Source: Comamonadaceae bacterium
GTDB lineage: Bacteria; Pseudomonadota; Gammaproteobacteria; Burkholderiales; Burkholderiaceae_C
Length of the DNA stretch: 12,243 nt
Assembly: GCA_947494405.1 (NCBI GenBank)
Contig: CANLWQ010000030.1
Span: 1-12,243, forward strand
Reading direction: 5' to 3'
Below are positions 1 to 12,243 of this stretch, one piece after another. The notes beneath the pieces are model-generated. The model saw nothing but the letters and a program-made list of their open reading frames with translations. It made no database searches and had not been told where the DNA came from. Within the stretch, counting starts at the first letter, position 1. Each line of letters begins with the position of its first letter. The translations under genes were made by a program, and so were the position numbers.

Positions 1-964
1 ATTTGTTGGTAAGGTGCTTTTTGTCGTTCTTGAACTTCTCTACGGTTAAGTCTAAATTTATAACCGGAGACGATGCAGCAAGTGCAGCGTTATCAAAAGA
101 GATCAAGTCATGAATATGACTGATGAGGCTAGCTGTTCTGTTAAGGCCCGTTGCCGACAACCATCCTCTTTTTTGGGCAAATTCAACTGCGACCTTCATC
201 CCAATTCCTACCGCAATCCCGTGTGACACCCCGAAATCAGTACCGGCCTCAATTGCATGACCAAAAGTATGACCAAAATTGAGAAGCAGCCGCTCCTTTT
301 GATCGAATTCATCGGTTTCAATGAACCACTTTTTAGTTTTCAATGCCCGAACAATGATGGCTTGTATATTGTTCCTGGACGTTCGCGCATCAGGGGCATC
401 GCAGAGGTAAGCTTGGAAGTCTTCGAAGCCTTTGGCGTAGCAAATTTTTGCTGCTTCGAATAAGCCACCTACAATTTTTTCAGAATCCATGCTGTCGACA
501 AAATCAATATCGACCAACACCTCTTTAGGTGGGTAAAAATTGCCAACAAGGTTTTTGTAGCCCAAAACATTGATAGAAGATTTTCCACCGATACAAGAAT
601 CGGCCATACTCAGTAAGGTAGATGGCATATATGTCCACTGAATTCCCCGCATATAGATGGATGCAGAAAATGTGGCTATATCCTGAATAACGCCGCCACC
701 CAAAACAACCAGATGCGTAGAACGATTAGCACCTAATTCACGTAACTTGAGAATAACTTCAGCCATGTATTCCAAGGCTTTGTTGTTCTCTGAAGCATTG
801 ATCAATATGCGCCTGCCAACTGGAATTGACAAAAGGGATTCGAAATAGTCATCTACCAAGAAAATAGCATCAGGATTGTCAATGATGACTTGCTGAAGTA
901 AATCGTGTCCAACAATTACCCTGTAACTGCCGCTCGAGGCTGATACTTCAAATGATTCTTGCAT
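1..964 (-). CDS. 3-dehydroquinate synthase-like sugar-phosphate cyclase (AroB family), C-terminus cut by window edge
   Basis: Reading the minus strand from ATG at 964 gives 321 open codons to the window edge. The protein aligns by eye with the dehydroquinate synthase superfamily, which uses NAD and a divalent metal to oxidise, eliminate phosphate from and cyclise a sugar phosphate. The NAD site is GGGVIQD (89-95). The phosphate/substrate loops are DSCIGGK (122-128) and YKN (136-138). The metal ligands are E170, H232 in NFGHTFGH (229-236) and H248. R225 and N229 match the conserved Arg/Asn of the family. The usual HGEAV motif reads HGIAV (248-252). The start is supported by AGAGGA seven bases upstream; the gene overlaps the preceding reductase gene by 17 bases. 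Its place after CDP-sugar genes and a NeuB-like gene argues against the housekeeping aroB. True substrate unknown; other superfamily members use DAHP, sedoheptulose 7-phosphate or glucose 6-phosphate. The family call is firm, the exact function is not. Confidence 0.88.
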   Translation of the reverse strand, partial: MQESFEVSASSGSYRVIVGHDLLQQVIIDNPDAIFLVDDYFESLLSIPVGRRILINASENNKALEYMAEVILKLRELGANRSTHLVVLGGGVIQDIATFSASIYMRGIQWTYMPSTLLSMADSCIGGKSSINVLGYKNLVGNFYPPKEVLVDIDFVDSMDSEKIVGGLFEAAKICYAKGFEDFQAYLCDAPDARTSRNNIQAIIVRALKTKKWFIETDEFDQKERLLLNFGHTFGHAIEAGTDFGVSHGIAVGIGMKVAVEFAQKRGWLSATGLNRTASLISHIHDLISFDNAALAASSPVINLDLTVEKFKNDKKHLTNK

Positions 965-1664
965 AAGAAAATCCTCTGTCAGCGGCCACAAACTGCCCAG
1001 TGATACCCGTATTTTCCTGAGAACACAAAAAACCTACGAGTTGGCAAACATCATTGAGGCTAGGGAGGCTGCCAATTGGGGTCATACCCAGCAAGCTATG
1101 GATCTGTTCGCTACTGAGATTGGCTCGGGTCATAGGCGTATCTAGCGCGCCAGGCAAGACTGCGTTTACAAGATACCCAGAACGCCCAAGATCCACAACA
1201 AGTGACTGCACAAGACCCTGCAAAGCGGATTTCGTGGTGCAGTAAGACAGTTTGTTCTGCCGGGCTAAGTTTTGCCAAATTGAACTGATGATGCAAAGGC
1301 GAGCTACCGAAGCAAGCAAATTGTGCTGCAACAATAATTGAAGGGCAACGAGAATATAAGTCACGTTGGCCGCATACAAAGCCTCGTGAAGCTTTAAATC
1401 AAAAGTGTGGATGTCATCACTGCAATTTGCACCCTGGGCCCAAACAACTGCATTGAACTGCTGGGAGTTTTTAGGAATAGGAAAAACACCATCACAACTC
1501 TTTGGGTCCCATGAAAGCCAGACAGCCCCTGAAAGTGATTCGTTGGGAGTCACTCCAGTGCGACTGACGGCTGTCACCCAGTAATCTTTATCCAAAAAGC
1601 TTTTGCATAAAGCCTGACCAATTGCGCCTGACGCACCAAAAATAATGACAGTCTGTTTGGACAA
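948..1664 (-). CDS. Short-chain dehydrogenase/reductase (SDR) of the sugar operon
   Basis: Protein of 238 residues, normal for a classical SDR, expected to be a cytoplasmic NAD(P)-dependent oxidoreductase. The nucleotide-binding motif GASGAIG is at 10-16, the structural Asn at about 100, the catalytic Ser at 127/128 and the YxxxK pair at Y141/K145. The usual NNAG stretch is altered to WAQGAN (75-80). The C-terminal GQFVAADRG resembles the usual cofactor-side GQ..xVDGG end. The start codon is TTG with no recognisable Shine-Dalgarno; the 25-base gap after the NeuB-like gene is almost pure A/T. No in-frame ATG lies upstream, so translation may depend on coupling to the previous gene. It overlaps the cyclase gene by 17 bases. 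Substrate unknown; reduction or epimerisation of a keto-sugar or cyclitol ketone is inferred from the neighbours. Confidence 0.85.
   Translation of the reverse strand: MSKQTVIIFGASGAIGQALCKSFLDKDYWVTAVSRTGVTPNESLSGAVWLSWDPKSCDGVFPIPKNSQQFNAVVWAQGANCSDDIHTFDLKLHEALYAANVTYILVALQLLLQHNLLASVARLCIISSIWQNLARQNKLSYCTTKSALQGLVQSLVVDLGRSGYLVNAVLPGALDTPMTRANLSSEQIHSLLGMTPIGSLPSLNDVCQLVGFLCSQENTGITGQFVAADRGFSYARII
972..977 (-). promoter_or_regulatory. Ribosome binding site of the AroB-like gene
   Basis: AGAGGA on the minus strand, seven bases before ATG at 964. It lies inside the end of the upstream reductase gene and fixes the start of the cyclase. It is the clearest Shine-Dalgarno in the sugar operon. 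Confidence 0.6.
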
Positions 1665-1689
1665 AATGAAATTAAAAATTAAATTAAGC

Positions 1690-2796
1690 TTAAAGACCGC
1701 GCTCGTATATGACCTTCTTCATCTCGGGATTTTTGGCATACGGTGTATCCAAAAGATCGATGTTCAAAGGATTATCTTTTTTGCAATCCTCAAGCATGCG
1801 GTGGCCAAATTTTCCAAGCATTAGCTCGCGACTTGATATTTGCCCCTTTTGCAAAGGAATGGACAGATACACATCTTCTTTGGTCAAAAGTTGGCCTTTG
1901 ACAAGGTCGTGTTTGGCATAGACGCCCCTGATATAAGAGTCTAGGTATGCAGTCTCGCGTGCAAGAGGAGCTCTACGTTGCGCCCCCGTATTTCCACACA
2001 TTTCCTTCGCCTTGTGCCAAGCTTTGAACCATGTATCTATTTGGTGAGGCAGGGACGAATAAGTGGCTACCTTGAATCCATCGGTGTCAATGTCTATATG
2101 TCGCTCAAATGTGCGAGCCCCTTTTGCAAAAGCAATTTGCACTGACGCAGTCCAGTCATGGTATTCATGGCAGGAATAACCAATCACGTGATTTGGGTAA
2201 CGCTGGCGAAGAAAATCAATTTGATTGAGTTCAGCCTCTGAATCCTCATGAGGGTAGGCCGCAACGCAATGATTGAGTGCAAGTGGAATATTTCTGTTCT
2301 CAAAAAAAGTGACTAAATCATCATTATCTTTCTGTGACAAACCACCCAGTGACACGATAACAGGCTTACGGGTTGTTGCAATCTTTTCAAGCAGTAACCA
2401 GTCGTTGTTATCAGCACTTGCAACCTTGATAATCGGCATATTGAACTCAACACACCAGTCAACAGATTTTTCATCAAATGGCGTTGCCATAGGAATACAA
2501 CCGCTGCGAACAATTGCCTCAACCAAAGTAGCAAACTCGCCTTTTGAAAGCTTGGTGTCATTTACCCGCTTGACATATCTGATGTCTTCCCTACCGACAA
2601 AATCTTTATGTACAAAATTATCCAGATCTCTAAACTGAAGCTTAATTGCTGCGCGCACATTATTAAAACGAACAATTTTTGAATACTGGTCTATTATGTT
2701 TAATCCGCGCTCCAAATTACCCTGATGGTTACTAGCCATTTCAAGAACGAACAGGTCATCGAAAATATTTGCATTCATAAATCTCTCATCATCCAT
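1690..2796 (-). CDS. NeuB-family PEP-condensing synthase (sialic acid synthase-like) with SAF domain
   Basis: Protein of 368 residues. The N-terminal TIM-barrel (about 15-270) is of NeuB type, which condenses phosphoenolpyruvate with an aldose to give a 3-deoxy-2-ulosonic acid. A C-terminal SAF (antifreeze-like) domain follows (about 285-350). Visible family residues include E19 and the ASNHQGN stretch (21-27), K52, K124 in IIKVAS, S149, H176 in NHCVAAYP and H210 in GYSCHEYH (the two metal-ligand histidines), and ERH at 231-233. The usual GPD..S substrate segment after ERH is replaced by DTDGFKVATYSS (237-248), and the SDHT motif by SCHEY, so the sugar substrate probably differs from ManNAc. 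No Shine-Dalgarno precedes ATG 2796. An alternative start at 2778 (Met7) has GAGAG four bases upstream and may be the real one. It lies 45 bases after rfbG. Sialic, legionaminic or pseudaminic acid synthase is less likely because none of their partner genes is present here. Confidence 0.85.
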   Translation of the reverse strand: MDDERFMNANIFDDLFVLEMASNHQGNLERGLNIIDQYSKIVRFNNVRAAIKLQFRDLDNFVHKDFVGREDIRYVKRVNDTKLSKGEFATLVEAIVRSGCIPMATPFDEKSVDWCVEFNMPIIKVASADNNDWLLLEKIATTRKPVIVSLGGLSQKDNDDLVTFFENRNIPLALNHCVAAYPHEDSEAELNQIDFLRQRYPNHVIGYSCHEYHDWTASVQIAFAKGARTFERHIDIDTDGFKVATYSSLPHQIDTWFKAWHKAKEMCGNTGAQRRAPLARETAYLDSYIRGVYAKHDLVKGQLLTKEDVYLSIPLQKGQISSRELMLGKFGHRMLEDCKKDNPLNIDLLDTPYAKNPEMKKVIYERGL

Positions 2797-2841: not shown

Positions 2842-3912
2842 TCAATTATTCTTACAGAAATTGTTGATTTGGTTCAGGGTCAATTCGCGCATGTCTTCAC
2901 CTGCAAGATATGCGCGATGCCACACAATAATATTTTTTATTGCCAGTTCAATATCAAGCCGCGGATGCCAGCCAAGACGCGCTTTTGCCTTGGAGCAATC
3001 AAGCTTTAAGTAATGGGCCTCGTGTGGATGCTCTTGGCCGTCCAACACCCAAGATGCACCATTTCCCCACTGTTCAGTCATTTTTTCCACTATCCAACTT
3101 ACAGGCTTGGCGTCTTCTTCGTTAGGTCCAAAATTCCATCCTTCTGCGAACTCAGTACCGGTTTCATGTAATTTTTCAGCCAGCATCAAGTAGCCCATTA
3201 AAGGCTCTAAAACATGCTGCCAAGGTCTAACGGCATGCGGATTGCGAATCTCGACTGGCTGACTGGCTTCTACCGATCGCAGAATGTCGGGAACCAAGCG
3301 GTTGGCAGCCCAGTCCCCTCCACCAATCACATTGCCAGCCCGCGCGGATGCTATTGCTACGCCATGCTTTTCATAAGTAGCTGAATTGAAATAGGACGAG
3401 CGATAGGCAGATACAACCAATTCAGCGCAACCCTTACTATTGCTGTACGGGTCATAACCACCCATAGGCTCGTTTTCACGATAGCCCCACACCCACTCTT
3501 TGTTTTCATAACATTTATCGCTGGTCACAATGACTACTGAGCGAACCGTATCCGCTGCCCGCACTGCTTCTAATAAATGAACAGTTCCCATGACATTGGT
3601 GGAATACGTTTCAACAGGATGATCGTAGGAATAGCGCACAATGGGTTGCGCCGCCATGTGAATAACCACATCAGGGCGCGCGTCCTTGATAGCACGCATC
3701 AAAGACTCACCTTCACGAATATCGCCAATAAGGGAGGTCATGCCATGCGCAACATTTGCGACTTTAAATAAACCAGGATCGGTTGCTGGTTCAAGTGAAA
3801 AGCCAGTTAGTTCGGCACCCAAACTCTGTAACCATAAGGACAACCACCCACCCTTGAATCCAGTGTGCCCGGTCATAAAGACCTTGCGCCCGCGCCAAAA
3901 AGAGGCGTTCAT
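2842..3912 (-). CDS. rfbG: CDP-glucose 4,6-dehydratase
   Basis: Cytoplasmic extended SDR of 356 residues, the usual length for RfbG, converting CDP-D-glucose to CDP-4-keto-6-deoxy-D-glucose. Visible motifs are GHTGFKGGW (15-23) for NAD binding, HMAAQP (85-90), TSDKCYEN (130-137), whose Asp-Lys is typical of CDP-glucose rather than dTDP-glucose dehydratases, and catalytic Y156xxxK160 in [14 protein letters not shown] is also present downstream. The reading frame is open 36 bases further up, to 3948, but the start at 3912 is preferred: it forms an ATGA overlap with the rfbF stop, has GGAAG eight bases upstream, and puts the Rossmann motif at the usual distance. It works directly on the product of rfbF. 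No RfbH-type 3-dehydrase is seen in the window, so 3-deoxygenation, if it occurs, must be encoded outside. Confidence 0.95.
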
Positions 3913-4679
3913 GTCCACAACTTCCAAGGAGCTTTGCCAGAATCCCACAGATTTTCTAAATGGTTCTTATCACGAAGCGTATCCATGGGCTGCCAAAAAC
4001 CATGATGAAGATAGGCTTGAAGCTGATCAGTACGCGCCAATTCTTCCAGAGGCTTTCGCTCCCAGATGCACTCATCGCCCTGAATCAAGCCAAGCACTTT
4101 GGGGGAAAGAACAAAGAAACCACCATTGATCCAACCGCCATCCCCCTCGGGTTTTTCTAAGAAGCTACGCACCGAGGACCCCTCAAGTCCCAAAGCACCG
4201 AATCGACCTGGCGGTTGGGTTGCCGTCATGGTTGCCAAGCGGCCGTGCGCCTTATGGAATTCAATAGTTTCCTTGATGTTGATGTCGCCAACGCCATCTC
4301 CATAGGTCATGCAAAAGTCTTCGTCGCCAAGATACTCTGCAACCCGCTTGAGTCGACCACCTGTTTGAGTTGTATCGCCTGTGTCAACCAGTGTCACACG
4401 CCAAGGTTCAGCCTTTTGACGGTGAACCTGCATTGTGTTGGCAGCCATGTCAAAGGTTACATCCGACATATGAAGAAAATAATTAGCGAAGTATTCTTTG
4501 ATGACGTAACCTTTGTATCCACAGCAAATAACAAAGTCGTTAACGCCATGAGAGGCATAAATTTTCATGAGGTGCCAGAGTATTGGCCTGCCTCCTATTT
4601 CAATCATAGGCTTGGGTTTGACCGCAGTTTCTTCGCTAATTCGCGTTCCCAAGCCCCCGGCAAGAATGACAGCTTTCAT
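3909..4679 (-). CDS. rfbF: Glucose-1-phosphate cytidylyltransferase
   Basis: Protein of 256 residues, matching the RfbF family (about 257). It makes CDP-glucose from CTP and glucose 1-phosphate in the cytoplasm, the entry step to CDP-linked 6-deoxy and 3,6-dideoxy sugars. The nucleotidyltransferase signature LAGGLGTR (6-13) is followed by [10 protein letters not shown] (21-30). Further family segments are CCGYKGY, YGDGVGD (Asp residues expected to bind metal), [27 protein letters not shown] and QPMDTLRDK. It is the first gene of the leftward operon in this window and its stop overlaps the rfbG start as ATGA. A weak GTGGA lies about ten bases upstream of the ATG. Divergent transcription from xdhC leaves 165 bases between them for the operon promoter, but I could not pick out a convincing minus-strand -35/-10 pair. 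Confidence 0.95.
3921..3925 (-). promoter_or_regulatory. Ribosome binding site deciding the rfbG start
   Basis: GGAAG on the minus strand, eight bases before ATG at 3912 and inside the end of rfbF. Together with the ATGA overlap it favours the shorter 356-residue product over the upstream in-frame start at 3948. Confidence 0.55.
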
Positions 4680-5942: not shown

Positions 5943-5954
5943 TTCAACTCAATT
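5937..5954. terminator. Weak A/T-only hairpin between convergent genes
   Basis: AATTGA (5937-5942) and TCAATT (5949-5954) form a six-base inverted repeat around a six-base loop, exactly over the two convergent stop codons. With one G-C pair and no strong T tract it is a poor intrinsic terminator; it may simply reflect the two stops facing each other. Confidence 0.2.
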
Positions 5955-6930
5955 GAGCAGATGGTTGCGAAGACCACTGCCCGCGCTTATCCTGCAACAC
6001 CACGCCCACACCCCAAGCCTTTGCCATGCGCTTAACCGCTTGGGGCGGGCACATGAAGAACACCTTGGTCAAAGCGTCGGCCATAGTGCATGAAGGGGCG
6101 ATGACGCTGACAGAGGACCAATGGGTGGGTGAGTCGCCGGTGTGCGGATTCAAAATATGGTGATGCCTATGGTCTGCACTGAACACAGTGTGTGCGTCGG
6201 ATGATGTGGCAGTGGCCAACCCTTGTGGATGAATGACTGGTGGCGCCACTGTTGAGGCAACAGAAGGCTCAACTGCAAAACGCCAGTCTTCTCCTTTGGC
6301 AGATTTACCCAGTAATGCGGTCTCACCCGTGTCAATCAAGGCATGCTGCACGCCATGCGACTGCAACACCGCACGCACCTTATCTGCCGCATAGCCTTGG
6401 GCAATGCCATTCAAAGACACTCCCATGCCTTTTACATGTAAACGCACAACATCTGCAGACACAGTCATGGCCTGCCAATTCACCAAAGAACGCGCTTGCG
6501 AAAGCGCCTTAAAAGAAGGCAAAGTTTGAGATTGCGCATGCAATAACCATAAGTTCCATAAAGGTTGCATGGTCACATCAAACGCGCCCGCGCTGCGGCG
6601 TGACACATATTGCGCCAGTGTCAACACCGACAGCAAGTGTGCATCAGGTTTGCGCAGTTCTCCTACGCGGTTCAAATGACAAAGCGCAGAATCTGGATCA
6701 AACAAACTCATTTGCTTTTCAACAGAACGAATGGCTTTGACCGATGCATCCAAGGCCTCGCTCAGCTTGCTGGCATCGGTGTGCGCGGCTTTGAGCCAAA
6801 GCGTGGTGCCAAAGCCCACCAAGCTACGCTCCTGCCAAACCAAGTATTCACGCGCCGCTGCATGCACACCGAGGCCATGGCCCAAGCCCAAACCCATGCC
6901 AAGTTGCAATAACTGTCTGCGCTGCATCAT
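5944..6930 (-). CDS. apbE: FAD:protein FMN transferase, ApbE/NosX type, exported
   Basis: Protein of 328 residues in the ApbE family, which attaches FMN covalently to Ser/Thr of extracytoplasmic flavoproteins using FAD. The N-terminus MMQRRQLLQLGMG with a hydrophobic Gly/Leu stretch to about residue 25 looks like a twin-arginine-type signal, so the mature protein should be periplasmic. Family segments seen are FDVTMQPLW (117-125), LNGIAQGYAADKV (173-185), IDTGE (199-203), HHILNPHTG (257-265) and DALTK (285-289), whose Asp is the expected metal ligand. It overlaps the NosR-like gene by ATGA and follows it, so that protein is the obvious target. NosX of denitrifiers is the same type of enzyme in the same gene neighbourhood, but nosZ is absent here. 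Annotation as apbE is therefore safer than nosX. Confidence 0.93.
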   Translation of the reverse strand: MMQRRQLLQLGMGLGLGHGLGVHAAAREYLVWQERSLVGFGTTLWLKAAHTDASKLSEALDASVKAIRSVEKQMSLFDPDSALCHLNRVGELRKPDAHLLSVLTLAQYVSRRSAGAFDVTMQPLWNLWLLHAQSQTLPSFKALSQARSLVNWQAMTVSADVVRLHVKGMGVSLNGIAQGYAADKVRAVLQSHGVQHALIDTGETALLGKSAKGEDWRFAVEPSVASTVAPPVIHPQGLATATSSDAHTVFSADHRHHHILNPHTGDSPTHWSSVSVIAPSCTMADALTKVFFMCPPQAVKRMAKAWGVGVVLQDKRGQWSSQPSAQLS

Positions 6931-9080
6931 GCCGACACCTTTTGTTTAATGGGAATGAATCGATCGCCAATTTTGCGATGCTGTATCAAAGGCAAGCACT
7001 TTTGATCGTCTTGGTAAATGGACACGCAATCCAAACACTGAAAGCATTCCGCATAGTTGATGTCGCCGGTTTTCTCTATGGCTTGGTATTCACAACGGTG
7101 GCGGCAAGTTTGGCAAGGTGTGCCGCAGGCCTCTCGCCTAGGTATCCACGACCAACGTTGCAACACATTCACTGCAGCCAGCGCCGCCCCCAAGGGGCAT
7201 ATATAGCGGCAATAACCGCGGTAAACCACCACACTCAAAATTAAACAAAACGCCGCCCAAGCAACATATGGCCAGTCCCGCTCAAAATACATGCTGATGG
7301 CGGTCTTAAACGGCTCAACCTCCAAAGCCAGCTCAGCAAACGAGGGCGATGCATACAAAGATCCCATAACCACGGCCAGCACCCCATACTTGATCCATTT
7401 CAGTTTGGCATCTAACGCCGTTTTCAATCGGCGCTGACGCACGCCCACCGCGTTAGCCAACAGGCTGATCAACTCTTGCAATGCCCCAAAAGGACACAGC
7501 CAGCCACAAAACGTGCCCCTGCCCCACACCAACAAAGTGACCGCCACAAACAGCCACAAAATCACGGTCATGGGGTCGTTCATGAAAAAGCTTAAATCTC
7601 CGCCAGCAGCCAGTGCTTCAATAGACGCGGTGATGTTCACGATGCTCAATTGGCCTTGCGCATACCAACCGATAAAACCCACGGTGAACACCAAATACAC
7701 ACTTCGCAACACCTTCAAGCGCTTAGGGTTGGCGCTCAGGCGTTTTTGCAAAAACAGTCCAGAGCTCAGCGCAATCAAGCCCAGCAATAACACCGCTATG
7801 TCTCCAGACCTTTGGCGCCACACTTCAGCCCATTCATAGCTGGAGAGATCGGTGTCTAACAAAGCATGCCACTGCGCACGAATGCCGTGGTAGCTATAAG
7901 GAATATCAATAAGCCGGCTTTCAAATTGGTTGGGAAAGTTGCCAAAGCGACGACCATATTTCAGCGCAATCTCAAAGCCTTGAGCAGGATCGAAAGGCGT
8001 GGCTGTATCGATGACATAAAAATATGCGCCTGTTTTATCGGGGTAGCCCGGTACCTTTAAACCTTTGTCATAGGCCATGGGACGCAGCTTGAGTTCTTTG
8101 CCGTTTTGCGAGACCACGAAAGGGATGTCCTCGACTATTCGCTGGCTCTCGTAATTCATTTTGTACAAAGGGCCGGTCTCGGTGACCATCAAAGCTTGTG
8201 ACAAGCGCCGGTTGGCTCCCAATAAACGCCAACCCTCCTCGTCCAGCAAATTGCGACCAATCGAGGGCAGACTCACCAATGCAGCATGAAATGTTAAAGC
8301 GACTTCATCGGGTTTGGTGGCAGCCAACTTGTCTGCGCCAGCCGCACGCGTGCCTGCAAACAATTGCTCAATCTCTCCTCGGGTGATGCTCATGCGGCTG
8401 ACCATGCCACGCGAGAGCAAGTCTTCCCACAATAAAGGCTTGTAGCTGTTGACCTCAGATTGGCGTTTAACCGAACTTGACGCAGAACTGCCCGCCATTT
8501 GTCCCATGGCACTGGCTTCCACATGCGCCAAAGCCACCGAAGCAGCCGATGTGACGATGGTGCGGTCAATCGCCTTGGCACTGACTGTGCCGGCTTGAAC
8601 ACCAAACAAGGCTGCATATTGATCATCGCGTCGCGCAGTGGCCAAATGACCAAAAATTTCAATTTGGTGGTTCACCGTCAAGCCCTCGTATTGCTTGGCA
8701 AATGTGGTCAGTTTGGCAATGCCTGCATCAGAGCGAAAAATAGGTTCGCGGTGGCTGATGAGAAGCGACTTGATGAAGCGACCTTCGGTGTCCATGGCCA
8801 CCAATATATTGATGGGCTTGCCGCCATAGCCTCTGACCGGCTCGAAGTCCACCGACTCAAACACATAGCCTTTGTGCTCTGGTTTGGCATCTGGTAATTC
8901 AGGGTTTTTGATGAACAAGGGGTACAGCGGCATGCCCGTCTGCATTTCACCCACAATGAAACTACCTGCAAAGATTTTGTCGAGATCTTCTTTCAGCAAC
9001 TCGCCTGCAGATGAGGGAAAAACAGACAGCGCAAAAAACGAAACTAGCAAGTAACGGACGAGCGATGAGAGAAGATGCAT
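6927..9080 (-). CDS. nosR: NosR-type membrane flavo-iron-sulfur electron-transfer protein
   Basis: Protein of 717 residues, close to the usual NosR length. A signal peptide (1-25) leads to a periplasmic FMN-binding domain (about 75-190) whose candidate flavinylation motif is SAAS (178-181). A second periplasmic region follows, then about five membrane spans (near 427-445, 457-474, 503-520, 564-578 and 604-620). The conserved CGWLCP (525-530) and CRYICP (624-629) pairs are typical of the NosR/NapH group. A C-terminal cytoplasmic ferredoxin-like segment has CxxxCxxCxxxC (652-663), CFQCLDC (679-685) and C695. NosR feeds electrons from the quinone side to nitrous oxide reductase maturation or activity. 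Here the only partner is the following ApbE gene, so this may be a partial nos module or a relative serving another periplasmic acceptor. No Shine-Dalgarno is obvious before ATG 9080. Confidence 0.9.
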   Translation of the reverse strand: MHLLSSLVRYLLVSFFALSVFPSSAGELLKEDLDKIFAGSFIVGEMQTGMPLYPLFIKNPELPDAKPEHKGYVFESVDFEPVRGYGGKPINILVAMDTEGRFIKSLLISHREPIFRSDAGIAKLTTFAKQYEGLTVNHQIEIFGHLATARRDDQYAALFGVQAGTVSAKAIDRTIVTSAASVALAHVEASAMGQMAGSSASSSVKRQSEVNSYKPLLWEDLLSRGMVSRMSITRGEIEQLFAGTRAAGADKLAATKPDEVALTFHAALVSLPSIGRNLLDEEGWRLLGANRRLSQALMVTETGPLYKMNYESQRIVEDIPFVVSQNGKELKLRPMAYDKGLKVPGYPDKTGAYFYVIDTATPFDPAQGFEIALKYGRRFGNFPNQFESRLIDIPYSYHGIRAQWHALLDTDLSSYEWAEVWRQRSGDIAVLLLGLIALSSGLFLQKRLSANPKRLKVLRSVYLVFTVGFIGWYAQGQLSIVNITASIEALAAGGDLSFFMNDPMTVILWLFVAVTLLVWGRGTFCGWLCPFGALQELISLLANAVGVRQRRLKTALDAKLKWIKYGVLAVVMGSLYASPSFAELALEVEPFKTAISMYFERDWPYVAWAAFCLILSVVVYRGYCRYICPLGAALAAVNVLQRWSWIPRREACGTPCQTCRHRCEYQAIEKTGDINYAECFQCLDCVSIYQDDQKCLPLIQHRKIGDRFIPIKQKVSA

Positions 9081-10546: not shown

Positions 10547-11290
10547 CTAGTACACCAAGCTGATGGGCACGCACAACTGGTAACCCACACCCCAGACCGA
10601 CTTGATGGCGGGTTCGGCGTCCTCATCTTGAACCGACTTGAACTTTTTGCGCAAGCGTGCAATCAGTTCTTCTAAAGCATGCTTGGTCATGGTGTCAGCA
10701 TCATCTTCAGGTGAAAACAAGTCGCACAAGGCACCTGACTCCAAAATTTGTTCTTTGGCATGGCTTAAAGACACCAACAAAACTTTTTCGCGATTGGTTA
10801 AGCGTAGTTTTTGACCCTCCATCGGGCCTGTCAACAAACGATCGCGAAGGCTTAATGTCCAACTGTTTTCAGACAACTGTTTCTTCACCCGCTTGCCCAA
10901 GTTTTGCAACACCAACACCAACTCGTCAGGTGAAATAGGCTTGGTTAAGTAAAAATCTGCGCCCCCGTGGCTGTAGCCAGCCAACCTGTCGTTCAAGGCG
11001 ACACGGGCGGTCATGATGACAATGCCTGCATTGGGCAAAGCCGCTCGAAGACGTTTACACAAACTCAAACCGCCCTCGCCTGGCAAATTCAAATCAATGA
11101 TGAACAAATCGATGGGCTCGGCTTGGGTGAGGTCATCCAAAGCGGCGGCGCTGGACACGCCCACCACGGAAAAATCATTCGAGGTGAGGTGCAGCTCAAT
11201 CTCTTGTCTCAGCAATCTGTCGTCTTCAACAATGGCTACTCTCAATGAATGGGCAGGCGTTGCCTGGTGGGGAGCGAGAAGATTTTTCAT
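10547..11290 (-). CDS. OmpR/PhoB-type response regulator
   Basis: Protein of 247 residues. The receiver domain (about 16-132) has the acidic pocket E22 D23 D24, phosphoacceptor D66 in IIDLNLPG, T94 in MTAR and K117 in TKP. The C-terminal winged-helix DNA-binding domain (about 142-243) ends in IKSVWGVGYQLC, the typical OmpR/PhoB hairpin. All receiver key residues are intact, so phosphorylation by the adjacent kinase is expected. The start overlaps the kinase stop as ATGA and has AAGG seven bases upstream. The N-terminus carries about 14 extra residues before the first strand. Target genes cannot be read from the sequence, and no repeated operator was noticed upstream of the neighbouring genes. 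Confidence 0.93.
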   Translation of the reverse strand: MKNLLAPHQATPAHSLRVAIVEDDRLLRQEIELHLTSNDFSVVGVSSAAALDDLTQAEPIDLFIIDLNLPGEGGLSLCKRLRAALPNAGIVIMTARVALNDRLAGYSHGGADFYLTKPISPDELVLVLQNLGKRVKKQLSENSWTLSLRDRLLTGPMEGQKLRLTNREKVLLVSLSHAKEQILESGALCDLFSPEDDADTMTKHALEELIARLRKKFKSVQDEDAEPAIKSVWGVGYQLCVPISLVY

Positions 11291-12243
11291 TGGGGTACCT
11301 TGAGGCTAAACACAACCAAATTTTGGTGTTGTGCGAAGTTGATGGTCGCATTAATTTTTTCACTGGCGGCCAACACCAGCGAGAGGCCTAAGCCCATGCC
11401 GGATTGGTCTTGAACATTGTCGTGACGGTAATAGGCTTGAAAAATTCTCTTTGGATCGGGGGATTTACCAAGCTCCACCGTATTGGAAACCTCCATCACA
11501 ACCATGTCGTCTTGCCGGGAGGCTCGGATGAGAATGGAGTCGGTTTTCAGGTGGTATTTGTATGCATTACTGATTAAATTTTGCAAAATCAGGGTCAACA
11601 TCAATCGACTGGTTTGGATATTCAAGTCTTTTGGAATATCTATTTTAAAAATAGATATGTCTTCAAAGTCGCCAATACACACATCCACCAATTCTTCTAT
11701 GTCGACTGACTCTCTGACTTGGCTCACATCAAAGCGGTCAATTTTGTTGGATAGCGCCACATGCTCAATCAACTCATTCATGCGCTCCACCGAGTCATCA
11801 ATTCGCTTAACCCGTTGTTGCGATTCACTGTCCTCCGCCGAACTGCGTTTCAAACTTGCCAAGGCAAACCGAATGGTTCCCAAAGGGTTTTTCAATTCAT
11901 GGGTCAGCATATCGATCATGCTTTGCCTCTCTATCAATCGCTCGCGCTGAGCCGTCGATTTGGCAGCTTCAATCTTGAATTCTTGCAAGGTGTCCGAATT
12001 GATTTTTCTTCGCTCAAACACCTGAATAATCAAAATCGCAAACAGGAAAATGCCAACGCGACCGCCATTCAAACGCGAGTCGCCAAAACTTTGCATGAAC
12101 AGCGGTGCAGGCGAGTTGATTTCAATAAAGAGATTGAAGTTCACGACCACACTGCCAAGCAAAATAATCGCAAACACCGAATAACCCAGCAATGTGATCC
12201 AGCGCAGTAATTTGGGGATTTTTTCAGCTGTTGATGCGCCCAA
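11287..12243 (-). CDS. Membrane sensor histidine kinase, N-terminus probably beyond the window
   Basis: The frame is open to the right edge, giving 318 residues. The outermost codon is TTG, so it could be a start, but the gene more likely continues upstream. Two hydrophobic spans are visible (about 13-39 and 60-76), followed by a short charged linker, probably coiled coil (80-108). The dimerisation/phosphoacceptor helix has H115 in THELKNPLG. The ATPase domain has an N box at QNLISNAYKY (221-230) and a G2 box GMGLGL (282-287). The usual DxGxG box (G1) is not recognisable; the segment reads EVSNTVELGKSPDPKRIF (251-268). The last membrane spans plus linker resemble kinases with a 7TMR-DISM sensor, but the sensor is outside the window and this is only a suggestion. 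Its stop overlaps the regulator start as ATGA. Confidence 0.88.
   Translation of the reverse strand: MGASTAEKIPKLLRWITLLGYSVFAIILLGSVVVNFNLFIEINSPAPLFMQSFGDSRLNGGRVGIFLFAILIIQVFERRKINSDTLQEFKIEAAKSTAQRERLIERQSMIDMLTHELKNPLGTIRFALASLKRSSAEDSESQQRVKRIDDSVERMNELIEHVALSNKIDRFDVSQVRESVDIEELVDVCIGDFEDISIFKIDIPKDLNIQTSRLMLTLILQNLISNAYKYHLKTDSILIRASRQDDMVVMEVSNTVELGKSPDPKRIFQAYYRHDNVQDQSGMGLGLSLVLAASEKINATINFAQHQNLVVFSLKVPQ

Follow-up and report, generated by a model that had tools for sequence, protein, structure and literature searches.

A NeuB-like, SDR and AroB-like gene trio in a CDP-sugar operon, proposed to supply the acyl donor of a caryophyllose-type branched sugar

The stretch of DNA analysed here (the window) is the entire contig C30, 12,243 bases long, of a Comamonadaceae draft genome that is 79.7% complete. 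It carries a minus-strand operon in which a NeuB-like synthase that condenses phosphoenolpyruvate (PEP), a classical short-chain dehydrogenase/reductase (SDR) and an AroB-like enzyme follow RfbF and RfbG, the first enzymes of a cytidine diphosphate (CDP)-sugar branch. With a probability of roughly 0.55 we read the trio as a module that makes the donor in a YerE-type pathway to a branched CDP-sugar. A narrower proposal is held tentatively, at a little under even odds: the AroB-like enzyme would be a homologue of 3-dehydroquinate synthase (DHQS) that has lost ring closure, and together with NeuB or an HpcH-type aldolase and the SDR it would build 3,7-dideoxy-D-ribo-heptulosonate, the acyl donor of YerE and the source of the caryophyllose branch, from erythrose 4-phosphate and a unit of three carbons. 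The direct observations are of gene families, gene order, co-occurrence, mutual exclusions and residue conservation. The operon runs leftward to the contig end in the following order:

3909..4679, minus strand: RfbF, glucose-1-phosphate cytidylyltransferase, first gene of the operon (TIGR02623, 483.7 bits; cut-off 300.25)
2842..3948, minus strand: RfbG, CDP-glucose 4,6-dehydratase, which makes the CDP-4-keto-6-deoxy sugar (TIGR02622, 515.4 bits; cut-off 278.45)
1690..2796, minus strand: NeuB-like PEP-condensing synthase (Pfam NeuB, 126.4 bits)
948..1664, minus strand: classical SDR (PF13561, adh_short_C2, 73 bits; adh_short also matched)
1..964, minus strand: AroB-like enzyme, TIGR04425-like, with its ATG at 964 and its 3′ end cut (DHQ_synthase N-terminal part 119.5 bits, C-terminal part 88.6 bits)

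A preliminary description of this DNA had called the trio consecutive and tightly packed behind rfbF-rfbG, which is confirmed by the 25-base gap between the NeuB-like and SDR genes and the 17-base overlap (948-964) between the SDR and AroB-like genes; Pfam and NCBIfam likewise agree with the families it had named. The contig ends at base 1, inside the operon, so that the AroB-like gene is cut (about 30 codons of its 3′ part are missing, as judged from relatives) and any further operon genes lie out of view.

Two samples of loci were compared with the window. For the first, genome contigs were scanned with the NeuB-like protein, which gave 15 loci at 68-84% identity from Proteobacteria, Verrucomicrobia and Chloroflexi, or 16 with the window; four of these contigs are only 3-8 kb long. 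The second was chosen without regard to NeuB, by searching 369 class, 399 order and 398 phylum genomes (overlapping sets) for the YerE-like protein with an E-value limit of 1e-85, which matched 7, 16 and 22 genomes respectively; as G101 falls in two sets, this amounts to 44 loci of up to 20 kb each and to 60 in the joint sample. Annotation was by six-frame translation and hidden Markov models (HMMs) built from part of the NeuB-like and YerE-like loci, with thresholds that we set ourselves. The co-occurrence in other genomes that the preliminary description had suggested looking for was found, the three families all recurring in 12 of the 15 relatives' loci. Over the 16 NeuB-like loci, SDR and AroB-like genes were present in 13, YerE-like in 10 (the window being counted as without it), RfbF in 7, RfbG in 8, RfbH in 6, an extended-SDR reductase in 7 (two types, 6 and 1), a HAD phosphatase in 2 and HpcH in none. 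That the NeuB-like, SDR and AroB-like genes form a recurring module in CDP-sugar operons is thus supported. The nearest relative, L003, whose NeuB-like protein is 84% identical, keeps the gene order of the window with RfbH inserted before NeuB-like: RfbF, RfbG, RfbH (744 against a cut-off of 423), NeuB-like, SDR, AroB-like, a reductase and YerE.

The protein that we call YerE-like in L003 is a thiamine diphosphate (ThDP) enzyme, below the cut-off in each of the 25 families shown, whose best solved relative is 8rph (406 bits; the next reaches 246), which we take to be the YerE-like JanthE. According to the portions of PMC12247030 consulted, YerE-like enzymes decarboxylate a 2-keto acid and transfer the acyl group to a CDP-sugar at its C4 ketone, ErwE favours 4-hydroxy-2-oxo acids, and MMAR_2332 of Mycobacterium marinum, a caryophyllose enzyme, has a donor preference similar to that of ErwE. 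Since such an enzyme needs both an open 2-keto acid as donor and a CDP-4-keto sugar as acceptor, the trio and the CDP branch most likely meet. The preliminary description had allowed that the CDP branch might make a separate residue, and this recurring neighbour argues otherwise. Its other expectation, a carbocyclic or branched higher-carbon sugar, survives by half: the branched sugar is probable, and the ring unlikely, as closing it onto C2 would destroy the YerE donor.

The pathway we propose, each of whose chemical steps we infer, as we do the length of the substrate and the absence of ring closure, starts from the NeuB-like enzyme, which would condense PEP with an aldose phosphate (in the simplest case D-erythrose 4-phosphate) to 2-keto-3-deoxy-heptulosonate 7-phosphate, the C4 epimer of 3-deoxy-D-arabino-heptulosonate 7-phosphate (DAHP). 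In sister operons an HpcH/HpaI-type aldolase would take its place, presumably with pyruvate. The AroB-like enzyme would then carry out oxidation, phosphate elimination and re-reduction as in DHQS and release an open-chain 6-keto-7-deoxy product, with no closing of a ring, and the SDR would reduce the C6 ketone left by the elimination to give 3,7-dideoxy-heptulosonate. A YerE-like ThDP enzyme, encoded by a gene that is adjacent in relatives and presumably lies past the contig end here, would decarboxylate this acid and join its C6 acyl chain to C4 of a CDP-4-keto-6-deoxy (or 3,6-dideoxy) hexose, the product of RfbF and RfbG and often also of RfbH. Reduction of the new ketone by the extended-SDR reductase would yield caryophyllose; in operons without RfbH the 3-hydroxy analogue would result.

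Caryophyllose is given as 3,6-dideoxy-4-C-[D-altro-1,3,4,5-tetrahydroxyhexyl]-D-xylo-hexose in the part of PMC5706390 available, and as a C12 sugar with a hydroxylated C6 chain in that of PMC7821131. On nomenclature grounds its branch, read backwards, is 3,7-dideoxy-D-ribo-hept-2-ulosonate minus CO2, in which the C2′ methylene would be the 3-deoxy carbon left by condensation with PEP or pyruvate and C4′ matches D-erythrose; the terminal methyl can be reasoned to be the outcome of phosphate elimination and ketone reduction. The configuration at C3′ is the one that NeuB enzymes set at C4 of N-acetylneuraminic acid (Neu5Ac) and pseudaminic acid (Pse), opposite to that in DAHP and in 3-deoxy-D-manno-octulosonate (Kdo, by Kdo8P synthase). 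The branch features so read would assign one step each to NeuB-like, AroB-like, SDR, YerE, RfbFG(H) and the reductase. Bradyrhizose and caryose were also considered as products and dropped by reasoning, as no matching chemistry was seen.

The NeuB-like protein probably makes a 2-keto-3-deoxy ulosonate phosphate, in line with the ulosonate phosphate that the preliminary description had supposed. Its closest solved relative is PDB 3g8r (223 bits), which we take to be a Chromobacterium violaceum protein. The alignment conserves K52, K124, H210 and H233 in every row with a letter there, presumably the metal-binding His pair and the PEP-site Lys. Arg314 of Neisseria NeuB, which we understand to contact the N-acyl group of N-acetylmannosamine (ManNAc), has as its equivalent (located as the Arg preceding a conserved Pro) Ile in 20 of 20 NeuB-like proteins and Ile or Phe in 11 of 11 cupin-fused relatives, against Arg in both other NeuBs of the same genome, which are encoded on C67 and C199. 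The scores for NeuB_NnaB (104 of 399.65) and PseI (108.4 of 340.25) also fall far below the equivalog cut-offs, and on these scores and the missing Arg314 equivalent we reject sialic- or pseudaminic-acid synthesis. As a separate observation, long NeuB proteins of about 500 amino acids adjoin YerE-like genes (L087 10787-12316 and L077, L084, L085, L090 and L091 among others; 11 were aligned), and the one that was scanned has a C-terminal cupin or lyxose-isomerase-like domain, which may isomerise a ketose to the aldose acceptor.

At the thresholds used, NeuB (33 loci) and the HpcH-type aldolase (10 loci) are found together in none of the 60 loci, and within the 44 YerE loci alone NeuB occurs in 17, HpcH in 10 and both in 0 (P = 0.003). 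All 9 of the AroB-like loci of the YerE set have either NeuB (2) or HpcH (7), against 18 of the 35 without AroB-like (Fisher p = 0.007). The loci L086, L088 and L092 were counted here among those without a 2-keto-acid enzyme; if their distant NeuB proteins are included the latter figure becomes 21 of 35 (p = 0.02). When the stretch of L080 was extended, HpcH (434 bits), SDR (263) and AroB-like (411) appeared in a row, as the co-occurrence rule had predicted. A tree of YerE proteins (55 rows, quick method, built before the L080 extension) places NeuB and HpcH loci as sisters with support 100 in each of three pairs (L017/L096, L074/L075 and L004/L081), so that the two enzymes swap while YerE stays, which is the pattern expected if both serve the same purpose. 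In the same tree the 17 rows whose loci lack a 2-keto-acid enzyme over threshold group together, with 5 changes against a shuffled mean of 14.6 and 0 of 500 shuffles as low; nonetheless L099, L103, L104 and L108, which belong to this group, lie inside NeuB or HpcH clades. A Novosphingobium humi megaplasmid encodes a further HpcH-type aldolase (L073 14001-14771), 56% identical to that of the operons, beside a polysaccharide export gene; this aldolase was dropped as the nearby called open reading frames include no YerE or AroB-like relative. Plasmids gave no NeuB-like, AroB-like or YerE-like match at the thresholds used.

The AroB-like enzyme has TIGR04425 as its best NCBIfam match (283.1 bits, cut-off 400), ahead of aroB TIGR01357 (231.2 bits, cut-off 305), both scores lying below the family cut-offs for a copy that lacks its C-terminal end. 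In a tree the operon copies split with support 100 from 24 presumed housekeeping AroB copies (23 chosen as top TIGR04425 matches of order genomes, plus the genome's own copy), though long branches were flagged. The operon rows, L040 being counted as one, share Q103, W119 and C133 (19 of 19 rows) and L217 (18 of 18 that are readable), where the others have G, F, S and C in 23 of 23, and position 47 is D in 19 of 19 operon rows against N in 22 of 23 other AroB. The genome has another AroB on C90, and on the sub-cut-off score, the separate clade and this separate copy we reject an ordinary shikimate AroB. The AroB-like enzyme is therefore neither an ordinary AroB nor the genome's only one, the latter being a point that the preliminary description had left to be checked. 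It is accordingly highly improbable that the two proteins are ordinary paralogues, one a sialic-acid synthase and the other a surplus shikimate enzyme, which happened to land in a lipopolysaccharide operon: they do belong to those superfamilies, yet the three scores far below the cut-offs already contradict the idea, as do the missing Arg314 equivalent, the separate clade and the AroB and two NeuB genes elsewhere in the genome. A match spread over two frames in a draft contig (L009 1763-2733), possibly by sequencing error, was also seen for the AroB-like family.

Thirteen DHQS active-site positions (zinc ligands and catalytic residues) are kept in 21 AroB-like rows, the departures being K182R in L082 and, in L003, three masked letters; 20 of the rows are distinct, L040 repeating L095, G331 is included, and the positions were matched by motif. 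Arg264 and Asn162, presumably the binders of the substrate carboxylate, are kept in every readable copy, and the substrate is on this account probably a phosphorylated 2-ulosonate. We propose that the enzyme acts as a non-cyclising phosphate lyase, as closure onto C2, in the manner of DHQS, would destroy the YerE donor. We regard it as unlikely that the AroB-like enzyme instead cyclises the ulosonate phosphate of the NeuB-like enzyme to a carbocycle, with the SDR reducing the ring ketone to give a cyclitol acid or carbocyclic sugar and YerE using pyruvate for a separate yersiniose-like residue. Such a route would suit the 13 kept positions, the constant company of SDR and AroB-like, and the cyclase activity of DHQS and of its relatives that act on sugar phosphates, of which 2-deoxy-scyllo-inosose synthase is one of the solved ones. 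It conflicts with the loss of the 2-keto acid on ring closure in operons tied to YerE-like enzymes, whose relatives ErwE and MMAR_2332 take long hydroxy-2-oxo acids in the portions of PMC12247030 consulted, and with the YerE tree, where proteins from loci without a 2-keto-acid enzyme over threshold are mostly separate from the rest. A kinship with 2-deoxy-scyllo-inosose or valiolone synthases was itself rejected, the former being only 14th of 16 solved relatives by sequence.

The partners of the AroB-like enzyme bear on the same question. Joining both samples, 15 of the 33 loci with NeuB have an AroB-like gene and 18 do not; the SDR is present in 14 of the former and 0 of the latter (p = 2e-8), and within the YerE set it is present in 8 of 9 loci with AroB-like against 1 of 35 without (p = 4e-7). 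Its S...YxxxK motif is intact in the window protein and in the 17 relatives listed. A HAD phosphatase shows the reverse distribution, 0 of 15 NeuB loci with AroB-like against 8 of 18 without (p = 0.003, or 0.018 if L082 is counted), by a model built from four HADs out of the tested loci themselves. Such alternation is expected if HAD and AroB-like act on the same phosphate, and it fits the carbocyclic route equally well. For the open-chain pathway that we prefer, the HAD variant is predicted to give a branch ending in CH2OH. Gastriose is a CH2OH-ended branched sugar, and no text confirming its branch was found. A HAD phosphatase adjoins the NeuB-like gene in L007 (9266-9940) and in L012 (3542-4201, on a 4.4-kb contig), and in both SDR and AroB-like were not found.

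Two other arrangements keep the open chain. In one, the AroB-like enzyme and SDR would act before the C-C bond is made, deoxygenating an aldose phosphate (e.g. to a 4-deoxytetrose) to which NeuB-like or HpcH then adds the three-carbon unit, with the same end product. Its final carbon skeleton is identical, gene order varies between loci with AroB-like before or after NeuB/HpcH, and HpcH enzymes, as we understand them, often accept unphosphorylated aldehydes; we nevertheless hold it quite unlikely, in view of the conserved Arg264 and Asn162, which point to an ulosonate substrate, and because erythrose 4-phosphate presumably cannot form the pyranose used by DHQS. In the other, which we judge decidedly improbable, the same module would serve another chain length or sugar (e.g. 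octulosonate or hexulosonate phosphate) and give a new branched sugar in place of caryophyllose. The sections of PMC12247030 consulted do describe several sugars with differing branches made by YerE-like enzymes, and the operons vary in RfbH, reductase type and methyltransferases; on the other side stand the unchanged AroB-like positions and the reasoning that a DHQS-type elimination in a six-membered ring needs the C7 phosphate of a 2-ulosonate, i.e. a tetrose acceptor.

Several results weigh against the donor-making module and the caryophyllose pathway. The draft genome itself, about 80% complete, gave no close YerE-like match (best 25%), no RfbH over the cut-off, with none between RfbG and NeuB-like, and no match to the reductase with an E-value of 1e-20 or lower; given that level of completeness and a contig that ends inside the operon, these absences neither support nor refute it. 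The kept DHQS positions are compatible with a true cyclase as well, and the cluster of G331, which holds the TIGR04425 protein over the cut-off, has no YerE match. The pairing of families also has its exceptions: the HpcH-bearing YerE loci L083, L098 and L100 have no AroB-like gene, the AroB-like locus L075 (a 5-kb contig) has no SDR seen, in L082 AroB-like and a weak HAD (92.5 bits against a threshold of 120) share a locus, and 10 of the 18 NeuB loci without AroB-like have no HAD over the threshold. Distant NeuB-family proteins of 76-98 bits are present in L086 (16250-17398), L088 (16231-17400) and L092 (5325-6467). The p-values treat the loci as independent though these are related, and the HMMs were built from part of the loci that they were used to count. 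No sugar structure was found for any of these strains.

The closest known systems are the YerE/ErwE-type pathways to C4-branched CDP-sugars (yersiniose, erwiniose, caryophyllose), with which the operon shares RfbF and RfbG over their cut-offs and the relatives often share RfbH, a YerE-like ThDP carboligase and an extended-SDR reductase. They differ in that the donor would here be made within the operon, by NeuB-like or HpcH with SDR and AroB-like, and in that the YerE gene was found neither in the window nor in its draft genome. No description of this gene set was found in the literature searched, though an in-silico survey of more than 200 YerE-like clusters (Krug et al. 2024, as cited in the part of PMC12247030 consulted) may mention these genes. 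The shikimate pathway (DAHP synthase and DHQS) is similar in that a PEP-derived 2-keto-3-deoxy-heptulosonate phosphate, as supposed here, would pass to an AroB-family enzyme with the DHQS positions kept; the present system differs in its separate AroB clade, in a product that must stay open if it is to feed YerE, and in using the NeuB family in place of DAHP synthase, so that C4 is expected to have the reverse configuration. Sialic-acid synthase NeuB, PseI and 3g8r share the NeuB family with the synthase, which differs by the Ile at the Arg314 equivalent.

TIGR04425, an AroB-related putative sugar phosphate phospholyase (cyclizing), is the NCBIfam family that the window copy matches best, albeit with its 3′ end cut and a score under 400. 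No mention of this family was found in the literature searched. Among the 399 order genomes its cut-off is exceeded only by G331, whose protein has the operon-type letters at all five marker positions. The G331 cluster (L062 4035-11033) comprises an HpcH aldolase, a CTP_transf_3 cytidylyltransferase, a methyltransferase, GFO/IDH, AroB-like and a 2-hydroxyacid dehydrogenase, beyond which lie a DegT gene, RfbF and RfbG; like the operons it sets the AroB-like gene beside a 2-keto-acid enzyme family, but it differs from them in lacking a YerE match. Our proposal gives the long branch seen in caryophyllose-type sugars an origin that can be tested, and it suggests a role for a family whose NCBI entry goes no further than a putative cyclizing phospholyase. 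If it is true, there would be a second heptulosonate route of shikimate-like kind, in which a shikimate-type fold works as a phosphate-expelling deoxygenase, and branched-sugar clusters could be read from sequence with the module (NeuB or HpcH; AroB-like with SDR, or HAD; YerE) as a code.

Among the YerE loci, radical-SAM genes (some with SPASM) and C-methyltransferase-like genes were also seen (L098 7344-8465 and 5176-6474, L061 5467-6642, L066 4236-5345, L083 4826-5989), which perhaps tailor the branch further. A promoter and terminator scan gave 9 promoter-like sites (7.5 in shuffles) and 2 terminator-like sites (5.4 in shuffles) and is not used as evidence. To the right of the operon, from 4845 onwards, lie genes for XdhC, ApbE, a NosR/NirI-like membrane protein, a major facilitator superfamily (MFS) transporter, a response regulator and a histidine kinase, which are taken as unrelated to the operon; the names NosR/NirI and response regulator are our own reading of the sequences. 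The membrane protein (6927-9080) has 4Fe-4S domains and is followed by the ApbE-family protein (5944-6930). The histidine kinase (11287-12243) adjoins the response regulator at the opposite end of the contig, by which it is possibly cut.

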